DNA of 64,000 bases from Bosea sp. RAC05. GTDB lineage: Bacteria; Pseudomonadota; Alphaproteobacteria; Rhizobiales; Beijerinckiaceae. The DNA lies in contig NZ_CP016464.1 of the NCBI RefSeq assembly GCF_001713455.1, forward strand, positions 247,501-311,500. The letters run 5' to 3'. The notes beneath the pieces are model-generated. The model did not search any database and was not told the DNA's origin. It saw only the letters and a program-made list of their open reading frames with translations. Position 1 is the stretch's first letter. Every line of letters starts with the position of its first letter. A program made the translations under genes and the position numbers. Below are positions 16,718-23,387 of the stretch, piece by piece.

Positions 16718-16999
16718 ATGTCCGCCACGTTCGAGACGGTCGCCGGAATCATTTCGGAGACCTGCGACATTCCGCGCGAGAAGATCGCGCCCGAAAGCCA
16801 CGCCATCGACGATCTCGGCATCGACTCGCTGGCCTTCCTCGACATCGCCTTCGCGATCGACAAGGCCTTTGGCATCAAGCTCCCGCTCGAGCAGTGGACG
16901 CAGGAAGTCAACGAGGGCAAGGCGCCCGCCGAGCAGTATTTCGTGCTCGAAAACCTCTGCAAGCGCATCGACGACCTCGTCGCCGCCAAGGCGGCCTGA
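16718..16999 (+). CDS. acpXL: Acyl carrier protein AcpXL
   Basis: Special acyl carrier protein (93 residues) on which the 27-hydroxyoctacosanoic (C28) acyl chain of rhizobial lipid A is built. The phosphopantetheine attachment serine is S37 in [10 protein letters not shown]. Unlike the housekeeping ACP it carries the insertion [20 protein letters not shown], typical of AcpXL. A GGGAG ribosome site precedes the ATG at 16718. It is first in the lipid A acyl cluster. fabZXL follows after 181 bp, a wider gap than between the later genes. The order acpXL, fabZXL, fabF2XL, fabF1XL, adh, lpxXL is the one described for Rhizobium. Confidence 0.95.
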
Positions 17000-17180: not shown

Positions 17181-17654
17181 ATGCGCCTCGAATACTTCGA
17201 CATGATCGACCGCGTCGTCGCCTTCGAGCCGGGCGAGAAGCGGATCACGACGCGCTCGACCGTGCCGGCAGCCGATGCCAGCCCCGTCTTCGAGGGCCAT
17301 TTTCCCGGCCATCCGCTCGTGCCCGGCGTGCTCCTGACCGAGACGATGGCGCAGGCGTCGGGCTATCTGCTGCTCGCCCTCAACGGGCTGACGCAGATGC
17401 CCTTCCTGATGACCGTCGACAAGGCCCGCTTTCGCACCTTCGTCGAGCCGGACGCCGTGCTCGACATCGCCGCCGAACTCGTCATCGAGGGCTCGGGCTA
17501 TGCCGCGACCAAGGCGCGCATCGCCATCGACGGCAAGCCGATCTGCGATGCGGAACTGCGCTTCCGCCTGATGCCCTTCCCCGCCGACATGCGCAGCCTG
17601 ATGGAGGCACGCCTGGCCGCCATCGGCCTCGTTCCGGAACAGGCCCGATCATGA
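17181..17654 (+). CDS. fabZXL: 3-hydroxyacyl-ACP dehydratase of the C28 fatty acid cluster
   Basis: A FabZ-type hot-dog dehydratase (157 residues) that removes water from 3-hydroxyacyl-AcpXL during elongation. The catalytic pair is H40 in FEGHFPGHP and E54 in LLTETMAQ, 14 residues apart as in E. coli FabZ (H54/E68). The ATG at 17181 starts the conserved domain. The frame is open upstream but carries no conserved content. Its stop overlaps the start of fabF2XL by 4 bases (ATGA). Confidence 0.94.
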   Translation: MRLEYFDMIDRVVAFEPGEKRITTRSTVPAADASPVFEGHFPGHPLVPGVLLTETMAQASGYLLLALNGLTQMPFLMTVDKARFRTFVEPDAVLDIAAELVIEGSGYAATKARIAIDGKPICDAELRFRLMPFPADMRSLMEARLAAIGLVPEQARS

Positions 17655-18778
17655 AGCACGGCGTCGTCATCACCGGCATCGGCCTCGCCTCCAGCCTGGG
17701 CGAGGGCATCGACACCCATGCGGACGCGCTGGCGGCCATGGCCGCGCCCGTCGTCGACGCGACGAGCTTCGCGCCCTATCCGGTTCATCCGCTGAAAGCC
17801 CTCGAACTCGACCGGCAGATCCCCAAGAAGTCCGACCAGCGCCAGATGGAGCCCTGGCAGCGCCTCGGCGTCTATGCCGCCGGCCTCGCGCTCGACGGCG
17901 CGGGGCTGAAGGACGATGCCGCGGCCAAGGCGGTGCTCCAGGTTATCGTCGCCGCCGGCGGCGGCGAGCGCGACCATGCCGTCGACAGCGCCATCCTCAC
18001 CGGTCTGCGTGGCGCCAACGCGCCCGGCGCCTTCCTCAACGAGCGGCTGATGGGCGACCTGCGCCCGACGCTGTTCCTGGCCCAGCTCTCCAACCTGCTC
18101 GCCGGCAATATCGGCATCGTCCACGGCATCACCGGTGCCTCGCGCACCTTCATGGGCGAGGAGCAGGCCGGGGTCGACGCGGTCCGCACCGCCCATGCCC
18201 GCATCGCCGCGGGCCAGGCCGAAATCATGCTGGTCGGCGGTTCCTACAATGCCGAGCGGCAGGACATGCTGCTGCTGTTCGAGCTCGGCGGCTATCTGCG
18301 CAAGGGCGATTTCGCCCCCGTCTTCGAGCGGCAGGCCGCACCGGGCCTGATCACGGGCAGCGCCTCGGCCTTCCTCGTGCTGGAATCGGCCGAGCGCGCG
18401 GCCGCCCGCGGCGCCACCGTCCTGGCCCGGCTCGACGCCGTCGTCGCGACCCGCTCGAAGCGCCAGCCCGGCGCGGTCGAGGCGGCGCTGCGCGGCCTGC
18501 TCGCCGATCTCGGCCCCATCGCCCCCGGCGCGCTCGCCGTCTCGGCCGCCACCGGCGTCGCCGGCATCACCGCCGAGGAGGCGGCTGCGCTGGCGACCCT
18601 GCCGCAGGCGCGCCGCGTCGCGGCCGGTGATCTGCTCGGCCACGCGGTCGAGGCCGCCTTCCCCGTCTCGGTCGCGCTCGCCGCCGCCGCCCTGTCGAAG
18701 GGCCAGGCGCGCGAGGCCGTCGTCACCGGCGCCGGCCATTGGCGCGGCGAAGGCGCCGCCCGCCTGGTGGCCCTGTGA
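17651..18778 (+). CDS. fabF2XL: Cysteine-free beta-ketoacyl-ACP synthase homologue (FabF2XL), possible chain-length-factor subunit
   Basis: A thiolase-fold ketosynthase homologue of 375 residues in the position of fabF2XL. The fold is clear at both ends (VITGIGLASSLGEG, residues 7-20; HGITGASRTF and EIMLVGGSYNAE in the middle). The protein contains no cysteine at all. Around the expected nucleophile it reads MGEEQAGVDAVR (168-179), and my alignment puts E171 in the Cys position. The first catalytic histidine motif (NAHGT) is replaced by SAATGV, while a GHAVEAAF segment keeps the second. The EEQAG sequence resembles the EQAG of type II polyketide chain length factors, where Gln replaces Cys. 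It therefore probably pairs with FabF1XL as a non-catalytic partner. It overlaps fabZXL and precedes fabF1XL by 10 bases. Confidence 0.88.
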   Translation: MKHGVVITGIGLASSLGEGIDTHADALAAMAAPVVDATSFAPYPVHPLKALELDRQIPKKSDQRQMEPWQRLGVYAAGLALDGAGLKDDAAAKAVLQVIVAAGGGERDHAVDSAILTGLRGANAPGAFLNERLMGDLRPTLFLAQLSNLLAGNIGIVHGITGASRTFMGEEQAGVDAVRTAHARIAAGQAEIMLVGGSYNAERQDMLLLFELGGYLRKGDFAPVFERQAAPGLITGSASAFLVLESAERAAARGATVLARLDAVVATRSKRQPGAVEAALRGLLADLGPIAPGALAVSAATGVAGITAEEAAALATLPQARRVAAGDLLGHAVEAAFPVSVALAAAALSKGQAREAVVTGAGHWRGEGAARLVAL

Positions 18779-18788
18779 GGAGCGTCCG

Positions 18789-20098
<1,310 letters not shown>

Positions 20099-20102
<4 letters not shown>

Positions 20103-20845
20103 CCAAAATTCTCGTCACCGGCGGCGCCAAGGGCGTCGGCGCGGCCATCGTCCGGGCGCTGGCCGCGGCCGGCCACAATGTCGACTTCACCTATCGCGCC
20201 TCGGGCGAGCAGGCGCTGGCGCTCGCCGCCGAGATCGCCGCCGCGCATCCCGGCCGCGCCATCCAGGCCCTGCCGCTCGACCTCTCCGACAAGGCGGCGC
20301 TCGACGCCTTCTGCGAGGAGCGCGAGGGCGAGAGCTATTTCGGCCTCGTCCACAATGCCGGCCAGCCCTATGATTCGCTCGCCGCGATGATGGCGCAGGA
20401 CAAGGCGGAAGCGGCCATGCAGGTCAATTTCTGGGCCTTCACCCGCCTCGCCAAGAGTCTGATGCGGTCCATGATCCGTGCCCGCTCCGGGCGCATCGTC
20501 GCCATCGGCTCGGTCGCGGCGCTGCGCGGCAACCCCGGCAACGCGGCTTACGCCGCCTCCAAGGGCGCGCTGATCTCCTATGCGAAGACGCTCGCGGTCG
20601 AGACCGGCAAGCGCGGCGTCACCGTCAACGTCATCGCGCCGGGCTTCGTCGACACCGACATGATGGCGCCCTATGCCGCCTATCGCGACAAGATGCAGGC
20701 GCAGATCCCGGCGGGGCGCTTCGCTAGGCCAGACGAGGTCGGTGGCCTTGCCGCCTTCCTGATGAGCGAACCCGCCGCCTACATCACCGGCACGGTCATC
20801 CCGATCGACGGCGGCGTGACCGCGCAGCTCGGCGTCCACCGCTGA
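20099..20845 (+). CDS. SDR family 3-oxoacyl-ACP reductase-like protein in the C28 cluster
   Basis: A 248-residue short-chain dehydrogenase of FabG type. The cofactor motif is TGGAKGVG (residues 7-14), the NAG motif lies at 86-88, and the catalytic residues are S138, Y151 and K155 (YAASK). It overlaps the fabF1XL stop by 4 bases, so it is firmly in this operon. It most likely reduces 3-oxoacyl-AcpXL to the 3-hydroxy form for FabZXL. The cluster described in Rhizobium goes from fabF1XL straight to the adh gene, so this is either a lineage-specific addition or a dedicated ketoreductase. Specificity is inferred from position. Confidence 0.9.
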
Positions 20846-21255: not shown

Positions 21256-22278
21256 ATGCGTTCACTTCAACTTCACGGCGACCGCGACCTCCGTCTCGAG
21301 GAGATCGACCCGCCGCCGCCTCCCGCCGCCGGCGAGGTCCAGATCCGCATCCGCGCCGTCGCGCTGAACTATCTCGACGTCTGGGGCTTCCGCGGCATGG
21401 CCTTCGCCAAGCGCAAGATGCCCCAGGCCGCCGGCGTCGAGGCCTCGGGCGAGATCGTCTGCGTCGGCGAGGGCGTCACCGGGCTCGCCGTTGGCGATAC
21501 CGTTACCGCCTATGGCGCCGAGACCTGCGGCCACTGCAAGGCCTGCCGCGAGGGCCGCGACAATCTCTGCGAGAACGTCGCCGGGATCATGGGCTTCCAT
21601 ATCGACGGCTTCGCCCGCGAATACCTGAACAAGGCGGCAAGGCTCGTCGTCAAGGCGCCGGCCGGCGTCTCCTTCGAAGACGCCGCCTGCGCGCCGATCG
21701 GCTTCGGCACGGTCCAGCACATGCTGTTCGACAATGCCAAGCTCGAGCCCGGTGAATCAGTCCTGGTGCATGCCGGCGGCTCCGGCATCGGCACCGCCGC
21801 GATCCTGATGGCCAAGGCGATCGGCTGCACCGTCTACACGACCGTCGGCGACGACGAGAAGGGCCGCAAGGCCGCCGAGCTCGGCGCCGACTACGTCGTC
21901 AACTACAAGACCGAGCGCTTCGAGGGCGAGGTCCGCCGCCTGACGAAGCGGAAAGGCGTCGACGTCGTCTTCGAGCATGTCGGCGCCGACACCTGGAACG
22001 GCTCGCTGCTCTGCCTCAAGCGCGGCGGCCGCCTCGTCACCTGCGGTGCGACCTCGGGGGCGTCGGCCACGATCAACCTGATGCAGCTGTTCCAGCAGCA
22101 GTACCGCATCACCGGCTCCTTCGGCTGCCGCATCGAGAACATCCGCCAGTCGCTCGACAAGATGGCGGCCGGCATGAAGCCGGTGATCGATTCGGTGTTT
22201 CCGCTCGAGGATTTCGAGAAGGGACTGGCGCGCCTCGAGGGCCGGCAGGTCTTCGGCAAGGTCGTCGTGACCTTCTGA
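21256..22278 (+). CDS. Zinc-type alcohol dehydrogenase/enoyl reductase-like protein (MDR) of the C28 cluster
   Basis: A medium-chain dehydrogenase/reductase of 340 residues, matching the adh2XL position of the rhizobial cluster. The structural zinc loop is CGHCKACREGRDNLC. The Rossmann motif is VHAGGSGIGTAAILMAKAIG and the GroES-like fold covers the first 130 residues. In the pathway it could reduce the enoyl group or handle oxidation at C27; the sequence does not decide. The start at 21256 begins the conserved domain (RSLQLHGDRDLRLEE); the open frame upstream has no similarity. A 115-bp gap separates it from the RHH gene, so a separate promoter is possible. Confidence 0.88.
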   Translation: MRSLQLHGDRDLRLEEIDPPPPPAAGEVQIRIRAVALNYLDVWGFRGMAFAKRKMPQAAGVEASGEIVCVGEGVTGLAVGDTVTAYGAETCGHCKACREGRDNLCENVAGIMGFHIDGFAREYLNKAARLVVKAPAGVSFEDAACAPIGFGTVQHMLFDNAKLEPGESVLVHAGGSGIGTAAILMAKAIGCTVYTTVGDDEKGRKAAELGADYVVNYKTERFEGEVRRLTKRKGVDVVFEHVGADTWNGSLLCLKRGGRLVTCGATSGASATINLMQLFQQQYRITGSFGCRIENIRQSLDKMAAGMKPVIDSVFPLEDFEKGLARLEGRQVFGKVVVTF

Positions 22279-22391: not shown

Positions 22392-23387
22392 GTGGGGACC
22401 GGGCCGATCTTGAGACGCTTGAAAGCAATCGCCGCACGCGCCGGCGCGGCGGTGATGATCGGCCTGATCCGGGCCCTGTTCGCCTCCCTGCGCCTGCTTG
22501 GCCCCGAGCGCTCGAGCGACCTCGGCGGCTGGCTGCTGCGCACGGCGAGCCCGCTGATTCCGGTCAACCGCGTCGCGCTGGCCAATATCCGGGCCGCCTT
22601 TCCCGGCATGGCCGAGCCCGAGGTGCGCCGGATCGCGCGCGGCGCCTGGGAGAATCTCGGCCGCACCGCCGCCGAATACGCCCATCTCAAGACGCTCTTC
22701 GACTACGATTACCTCCATCCCGACGCGCCCTCCCGCGTCGAAGTCGAGGGCATCGAGCATTTCATCGCGCTGAAGGACGACGCGAAGCCCGGCCTGATCT
22801 TCTCGGCGCATCTCGCCAATTGGGAACTGCCGGCGATCTGCGCCCAGGCCTATGATCTCGACACGACCGCCGTCTTCCGGGCGCCGAACGACCCCGCCAT
22901 CGCCGCGGTCGTCCACGAGATCCGCTCCGGCGCGATGGGCGGGCTCGCCGCCGCCAAACAGGGCGCCGCCTTCGCCATGCAGGGCGTGCTCGAGCGCGAC
23001 GGTCATCTGGGCATGCTCATCGACCAGCACTTCACCCGAGGCGTCGTCGTGCCCTTCATGGGCCGCCCGGCCCTGACCAACCCGATTCTCGGCAAGTTCG
23101 CGCGCCGCTTCGAATGCCCGGTGCACGGCGTGCGCGTCATCCGCCTGCCGAACCAGCGCTTCCGGCTGCAGCTGACGCCAGCGCTCGACCTGCCCCGCGA
23201 TGCGCAGGGCGAGATCGACGTGCAGGGCGCGATGGCGATGATGACGGCCGTGGTCGAGGGCTGGGTCCGCGAACATCCCGAGCAATGGCTCTGGATGCAC
23301 CGCCGCTGGCGCCCGAACATGATCTCGGCCGCCGCCGCCGCGGAGGCACCGGCCGTTGCACCATCCCCTGTTTTCAAGGCAACGTGA
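22392..23387 (+). CDS. lpxXL: Lipid A very-long-chain acyltransferase LpxXL
   Basis: Inner-membrane acyltransferase of the LpxL/HtrB family (331 residues) that transfers the C28 chain from AcpXL to a primary hydroxyacyl group of lipid A. The HX4E motif is H140-E145 in AHLANWELP. The DQHFTRGVVVPFMGRPA segment matches the acyl-donor region of the family, and an N-terminal membrane segment spans about residues 18-38. The start is uncertain: GTG at 22392 (taken here) or TTG at 22410. The position, last in the acpXL cluster, supports the specific name over a general lauroyltransferase. Confidence 0.92.
   Translation: MGTGPILRRLKAIAARAGAAVMIGLIRALFASLRLLGPERSSDLGGWLLRTASPLIPVNRVALANIRAAFPGMAEPEVRRIARGAWENLGRTAAEYAHLKTLFDYDYLHPDAPSRVEVEGIEHFIALKDDAKPGLIFSAHLANWELPAICAQAYDLDTTAVFRAPNDPAIAAVVHEIRSGAMGGLAAAKQGAAFAMQGVLERDGHLGMLIDQHFTRGVVVPFMGRPALTNPILGKFARRFECPVHGVRVIRLPNQRFRLQLTPALDLPRDAQGEIDVQGAMAMMTAVVEGWVREHPEQWLWMHRRWRPNMISAAAAAEAPAVAPSPVFKAT

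Follow-up and report, generated by a model that had tools for sequence, protein, structure and literature searches.

FabF2XL, a ketosynthase homologue without a nucleophile in the lipid A very-long-chain fatty acid cluster of Bosea, as a candidate docking partner of FabF1XL

In model type II polyketide synthase (PKS) systems, the condensing enzyme is described as a heterodimer in which an active and an inactive ketosynthase (KS) are obligate partners (PMC12664062). The two subunits, KS-alpha and the chain length factor (CLF), are exemplified by the actinorhodin proteins (1tqy). Pairs of this kind are also known from pathways with lipid-like products, such as the aryl polyene pair ApeO-ApeC and the ishigamide pair Iga11-Iga12, both of which make reduced, lipid-like chains. 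Residues Arg30 and Arg31 of ApeC are proposed to be important for binding the acyl carrier protein (ACP), and an interaction between the ACP and the CLF is reported for the Iga system (PMC8358021). In polyunsaturated fatty acid (PUFA) synthases, the KS-CLF didomain of PfaC places a CLF within a fatty acid system for very long chains (C20) (PMC9702510).

Lipid A of rhizobia and Agrobacterium carries a very long acyl chain that is linked to a dedicated gene cluster (PMC11901934, PMC5613085). In A. fabrum this chain is C28 27-OH, and the cluster is reported to be needed for the very-long-chain fatty acid (VLCFA) of lipid A (PMC11901934). Two of the cluster genes, fabF1XL and fabF2XL, are both described as encoding ordinary 3-oxoacyl-ACP synthases (PMC11901934, PMC7663294). 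In an A. fabrum fabF2XL insertion mutant no VLCFA was found, and this was partly restored by a supplied copy of the gene; the acyltransferase LpxXL still worked in the mutant, using C16-C18 chains (PMC11901934). In Bradyrhizobium ORS278, neither fabF1XL nor fabF2XL mutants could be recovered (PMC5613085). These genetics fit FabF2XL as an obligate subunit; the A. fabrum phenotype establishes that FabF2XL is needed for VLCFA and is not a demonstration that it controls their length. A search of the open literature, titles and abstracts included, returned no proposal of a CLF role for FabF2XL (a 2011 JBC paper on mutants lay outside its scope). KS-CLF pairs as such are already known, including those of the aryl polyene and PUFA pathways, and what would be new here is a place for one in primary lipid A metabolism.

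The window, meaning the whole stretch of 64,000 nt of Bosea sp. RAC05 DNA that was analysed, carries such a cluster on the plus strand between 16718 and 23387, with acpXL, fabZXL, fabF2XL, fabF1XL, a short-chain dehydrogenase/reductase (SDR) gene, adhXL and lpxXL in that order. The features are as follows.

16718..16999, plus strand: acpXL, dedicated acyl carrier protein, 93 aa (NF005079, 172 bits); K49 and K54 correspond to E48 and E53 of AcpP
17181..17654, plus strand: fabZXL, dehydratase (PF07977)
17651..18778, plus strand: fabF2XL, ketosynthase homologue without a nucleophile, 375 aa (NCBIfam NF005084, 521 bits; Pfam match to the N-terminal KS domain only)
17840..17842, plus strand: R64 of FabF2XL, at the place of Arg68 of FabF, ACP-dock region 1
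17951..17974, plus strand: AAGGGERD loop of FabF2XL, residues 101-108, at the place of Ile108 of FabF and of the CLF chain-length loop (the alignment with FabF is ambiguous here)
18056..18058, plus strand: D136 of FabF2XL, at the place of Lys128 of FabF, charge-reversed, ACP-dock region 2
18143..18163, plus strand: RTFMGEE strand of FabF2XL; E171 (18161-18163) is at the place of Cys163 of FabF
18789..20102, plus strand: fabF1XL, catalytically complete ketosynthase, 437 aa (NF005076, 738 bits); C185 at 19341-19343
20099..20845, plus strand: SDR, FabG-like reductase inside the cluster
21256..22278, plus strand: adhXL, zinc-type dehydrogenase
22392..23387, plus strand: lpxXL, VLCFA acyltransferase of lipid A (NF005120, 424 bits)

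The fabF2XL gene ends 10 bases upstream of the ATG of fabF1XL at 18789. Its product is an open frame of 375 aa that keeps the full KS length, contains no Cys and reads ...SRTFMGEEQAGVDAVR. The score of 521 bits is well above the curated cut-off of the NF005084 / PRK06519 family (320 bits), and the family is sharply bounded in the sample of the order Rhizobiales, where the lowest full match scored 466 bits, four partial matches scored 333-400 and the next protein 73.5. Counts by alignment column were made on 211 FabF2XL sequences (212 unique sequences, one short row dropped), drawn from two genome collections in which only identical sequences were merged, so that near-identical species may remain.

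Among these 211 relatives, the column of the nucleophile (that of C185 in FabF1XL) holds Glu in 210 and Asp in one, and an aligned Cys in none. FabF1XL has Cys there in 198 of 199 sequences, the remaining residue being an unread X. The register is backed by an independent profile alignment, which places E171 on C163 of E. coli FabF. The two residues before E171, Gly and Glu, are each invariant (211/211), giving the family a signature of its own, GEE. The first catalytic His is missing throughout (0/211), as is the Lys (0/211), and the Phe of the GFGG gate is found in only two sequences, while the second catalytic His is kept in 178. Loss of the nucleophile is a family rule, and FabF2XL, without the Cys-His-His(-Lys) set of a catalytic beta-ketoacyl-ACP synthase, cannot act as a Cys-dependent condensing enzyme. 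The KS fold is nevertheless retained, according to the alignment, an AlphaFold2 (AF2) monomer model and a structure comparison. In the comparison, KS chains of 6kxd and 1tqy were among the matches listed (best 50 entries); each entry was represented by its best chain, and the unlisted CLF chains of 6kxd and 1tqy carry no meaning. The original prediction that FabF2XL lacks both the thiolase-fold nucleophile and the first His motif, and that FabF1XL retains C185, H325 and H362, is borne out; FabF1XL also keeps K357 and F421. The absence of any Cys, by comparison, is true of the window protein and is not a family trait, since only 34 of 135 relatives are Cys-free over their full length. Public names still call the protein a synthase (NCBIfam NF005084; jgi '3-oxoacyl-[acyl-carrier-protein] synthase II').

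Like the type II PKS subunits, FabF1XL and FabF2XL are encoded side by side and share a fold, the one being a catalytic KS homologue and the other lacking the nucleophile. The resemblance does not extend to the motif on which the original prediction leaned, that is, the EQAG of Bosea read as the hallmark of a CLF. In a true CLF the word is SE[Q]AGG, with Gln on the Cys column (L226), and in Bosea it is GE[E]QAG, with Glu on that column, so the motif is one residue out of register; moreover, residue 172 is Gln in only 28 of 211 relatives. The three annotated CLFs that were aligned have Q, Q and H on the Cys column (L225, L226 and L227, respectively), and three looser partner genes have R, R and A (L229, L231 and L228). 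The Gln (or similar residue) expected of a type II PKS CLF is thus replaced by Glu or Asp in FabF2XL. Other differences from CLFs are the second His, which is R in the three annotated CLFs and mostly kept in FabF2XL; the C-terminal KS match in Pfam, found in two CLF controls but not in FabF2XL; and the order of the genes, which is reversed relative to the CLF loci fetched, the dead subunit coming first in fabF2XL-fabF1XL. ApeC is about half-size with a single thiolase domain (PMC8358021), in contrast to the full-length FabF2XL, and PfaC is described as part of a fused megasynthase, whereas FabF2XL and FabF1XL are discrete type II proteins beside an ACP dedicated to the pathway. The housekeeping FabF homodimer differs in that FabF2XL is without its Cys163, His303, Lys and gate Phe, and has one ACP-dock residue reversed in charge.

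In a phylogenetic tree, the 14 FabF2XL rows group as a single clade (100/100) with a long stem. An unstarred 94/93 split sets it on the CLF side, among long branches, and the AU test rejects neither a grouping of FabF2XL with CLFs (p 0.393) nor one with FabF1XL (p 0.207).

In the sample of the order, 124 of 397 genomes scored above the cut-off for FabF2XL (NF005084), and it was the same set that did so for FabF1XL (NF005076) and for AcpXL (NF005079); in each of the three profile searches, 0 of 14 control genomes exceeded the cut-off. No FabF2XL genome of this sample was without FabF1XL (0/124). In a sample of the phylum, FabF2XL was found in 44 of 397 genomes, and two of the 44 lie outside the order. 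A second FabF2XL is present in ten genomes, each of which has a second FabF1XL as well (over the cut-off in six; below it in the other four, two of them with a partial match), while a second AcpXL over the cut-off was found in none of the ten. Second pairs in tandem or nearby were seen at seven loci, again without a second AcpXL over the cut-off. In one genome (G361), no further gene of the cluster lies within 11 kb of a FabF2XL-FabF1XL pair (L130), and the full cluster is also present (L134). Since AcpXL and the pair usually share one cluster, co-occurrence by itself is no proof of contact between them.

FabF2XL is encoded beside a catalytic KS, as CLFs are. Among 80 named loci, it adjoins FabF1XL in 68, and no fused FabF2-FabF1 open frame was found in these 80. 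The other 12 are 11 loci of Methylobacterium and one at a contig end, and in all 12 cases FabF1XL is present over the cut-off elsewhere. The Methylobacterium clusters are split, with acpXL, fabZXL and fabF2XL kept together and FabF1XL located elsewhere in each genome beside a like SDR gene; the pair is therefore maintained even when unlinked. In the set L045-L144, a crude ordering of open frames placed 102 of 107 FabF2XL copies next to FabF1XL. Four of the five non-adjacent copies were judged to be artefacts of the ordering and one to be real; this lone copy (L105, genome G043), the single locus in the order sample where FabF2XL stands without its neighbour, is from a genome with two FabF1XL genes on other contigs.

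Conservation is divided between the two proteins. In the ten-residue blocks spanning residues 131-170, FabF2XL scores 0.82, 0.96, 0.91 and 0.91, and the same columns in FabF1XL score 0.39, 0.56, 0.73 and 0.84. The six catalytic blocks (171-190, 211-220, 301-310 and 321-340) show the reverse, at 0.90 to 0.96 in FabF1XL and 0.50 to 0.67 in FabF2XL. The AF2 monomer of FabF2XL has an overall pLDDT of 92, and is lowest at 101-110 and 131-150 (62, 62 and 68), segments that are among the most conserved parts of the protein (0.86, 0.82 and 0.96). In ketosynthases, the region containing segments such as those in 101-150 forms the dimer interface and the tunnel. High conservation combined with low model confidence is read as marking parts of FabF2XL that may need a partner, a thin alignment being the other possible reason. 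Within the first segment lies the Gly-rich loop (G103 in 199, G104 in 191 and G105 in 210 of 211 relatives), where FabF has Ile108 and the CLF controls have aromatic residues, and where FabF2XL reads Gly-Gly-Gly-Glu-Arg-Asp. Such a loop would fit a longer tunnel, although the alignment is ambiguous at this point.

A similar division is seen in the residues that bind the carrier protein. When AcpP is crosslinked to FabF or FabB, it is mostly the other, uncrosslinked monomer of the synthase that makes the contacts (PMC7138838), a general statement that does not assign K128 of FabF to one monomer or the other. In FabB, the residues K62' and R65' are met by D35 and D38 of AcpP (PMC7966745). The dock residues named for FabF are K65, R68, K69, R127, K128 and R206, together with the patch 129-132 and 205-206. 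All six positions are basic in 30 of 30 housekeeping FabF proteins of the order. In FabF1XL, 63-65 are deleted (the dock alignment spans a deletion), basic residues are found at R68 in 13, K69 in 0, R127 in 17 and K128 in 52 of 199 sequences, and the R206 column is Ser in all 199. If the dock lies on the partner subunit, as in FabF and FabB, then most of it would be missing from a FabF1XL homodimer, and the division observed is what a FabF1XL-FabF2XL heterodimer would need.

FabF2XL keeps a part of the dock and alters another. From region 1, only the R68 position is retained (R64 in the window protein), K or R being present in 210 of 211 relatives; K65 and K69 are basic in none, and R127 in one. 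Further K or R residues, absent from FabF of the order, are found at 63 (198/211) and 64 (204/211). The L-R-P-T patch is nearly invariant (208, 210, 211 and 211 of 211, respectively). At the position of Lys128, the charge is reversed, D or E being present in 195 of 211 FabF2XL, 2 of 199 FabF1XL and 0 of 30 FabF sequences; a profile-profile alignment confirmed that D136 and Lys128 are in register. The recognition region of AcpXL carries a reversal of its own. Of 97 AcpXL relatives, 93 have E48K and 94 have E53K, whereas among 30 housekeeping AcpP sequences of the order, position 48 is acidic (E or D) in 29 and position 53 is E, likewise in 29. Other acids of AcpXL are kept (E13 in 87/97, D35 in 97/97, and D in place of E47 in 97/97), while D38 is lost in 19 of 97, including the window protein. 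The two reversals go together, in that genomes with K48 in AcpXL have an acid at position 128 of FabF2XL in 111 of 119 copies, and those with Q48 (four genomes of one family) have A or G there in all eight copies (acid in 0/8). The changes in AcpXL could also come from its other partners, FabZXL and LpxXL. The net charge of dock segment 58-77 (+1.7 in FabF2XL, -1.2 in FabF1XL) was dropped as evidence, as the value for the working FabF of the order is -2.1.

Coevolution of FabF1XL and FabF2XL was examined in 187 same-locus pairs, by mutual information and by branch-wise co-change. The expected interface box held 17.5% of the top 40 coevolving pairs, compared with 4.1% and 3.4% by area, and five shuffles of the mutual information gave 0-5%. 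Against column marginals, the ratios for branch-wise co-change were 1.92, 1.37, 1.06 and 1.17 at the top 100, 200, 500 and 1000 pairs. The enrichment largely vanishes by this measure and was not used. For the pair M168/S182, all eight rows without Met also have a partner other than Ser, but this amounts to only two co-changes on the tree.

FabF1XL and FabF2XL probably form an obligate pair, in which FabF2XL would dock AcpXL and line the tunnel at the interface. The heterodimer that had been predicted is well supported by sequence evidence independent of the EQAG motif (the shared 124 genomes, the paired second copies, the divided conservation and the divided dock), while the argument from EQAG fails. 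Condensation would take place only at the FabF1XL site (C185, H325 and H362): the acyl chain would be loaded on C185, and malonyl-AcpXL, docked mainly on FabF2XL, would be condensed with it there. FabF2XL would keep the face that in FabF serves the active site of the partner, its own site being filled by the nearly invariant Glu. Docking may involve the R64 region and D136, the latter set against K49 and K54 of AcpXL, and the growing chain would then enter an interface tunnel lined by FabF2XL. Contact with the ACP on the side of the inactive subunit would resemble that of the ApeC and Iga systems. A more specific proposal is that the pair is a private condensing heterodimer for VLCFA, of an origin apart from the polyketide CLFs, in which the charge-reversed dock favours AcpXL and insulates C28 synthesis from FabF and AcpP, and the Gly-rich loop of FabF2XL opens a tunnel that sets the length at C26-C30. 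This is tentative, and somewhat more likely to be wrong than right in this full form.

The clearest alternative is that FabF2XL is a structural or docking partner of FabF1XL and nothing more, chain length being set elsewhere, by the FabF1XL tunnel, the selectivity of LpxXL or kinetics. It has a little less than an even chance, and its probability overlaps with that of the docking and tunnel subunit, as both assume the same heterodimer and differ only on length. The strongest signals concern docking rather than the tunnel, for which the alignment of the GGG loop is ambiguous, and the A. fabrum insertion mutant is missing the VLCFA entirely, with LpxXL then taking C16-C18 chains (PMC11901934). 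On the other hand, the KS/CLF interface channel of type II PKS is described as primarily responsible for length (PMC12664062), C22 PUFA fell by 57.51% when the CLF of a PUFA synthase was disrupted (PMC9702510), and segment 131-170 of FabF2XL is strongly conserved. Should FabF2XL instead act independently of FabF1XL, binding and presenting acyl-AcpXL as a monomer or homodimer, then the dock features that it keeps, the lone copy at L105 and the split Methylobacterium clusters would be accounted for. This is unlikely, given that FabF1XL is present in all 124 FabF2XL genomes, that the second copies occur together in ten of ten, and that FabF1XL alone would lack most of a dock kept in 30 of 30 FabF proteins of the order.

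A near-universal Glu (210/211) and a second His retained in 178 relatives are more than an idle site would need, and FabF2XL could still be catalytic, with E171 (or E170/E171) serving as a base or acyl acceptor, for example in a malonyl-AcpXL decarboxylase or an acyl transferase. The absence of the first His and the Lys, and the near absence of the gate Phe, make this improbable; KSQ-type decarboxylases need Gln in place of Cys together with both His, and FabF2XL has neither the Gln nor the first His. That FabF2XL is a decaying relic, or just an oddity of annotation without function, is hardly credible. The synthase name that NCBIfam and JGI give to a protein without the nucleophile could be taken that way, but 34 columns are invariant among 46 FabF2XL sequences with 45-79% identity to the window protein, and FabF2XL is present in all 124 genomes with AcpXL over the cut-off. 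The phenotype of the A. fabrum mutant (PMC11901934) also argues against it, as does the fact that no fabF2XL mutants of Bradyrhizobium ORS278 could be recovered (PMC5613085).

If FabF2XL is the docking and tunnel subunit of the pair, named residues would offer a direct way to test how bacteria count to C28. The logic of the chain length factor would then extend from secondary metabolism to lipid A, and there would also be a hint of how cells separate a dedicated ACP from the housekeeping fatty acid synthase.

Sixteen of the clusters had no match to fabZXL, and a cluster without this gene has been reported in Mesorhizobium loti (PMC7663294). The FabG-like SDR gene that follows fabF1XL in the window is outside the six genes given for A. 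fabrum (PMC11901934); of 100 clusters fetched, 50 have a like gene on the same strand, and the SDR at 20099-20845 is perhaps a dedicated ketoreductase for AcpXL.
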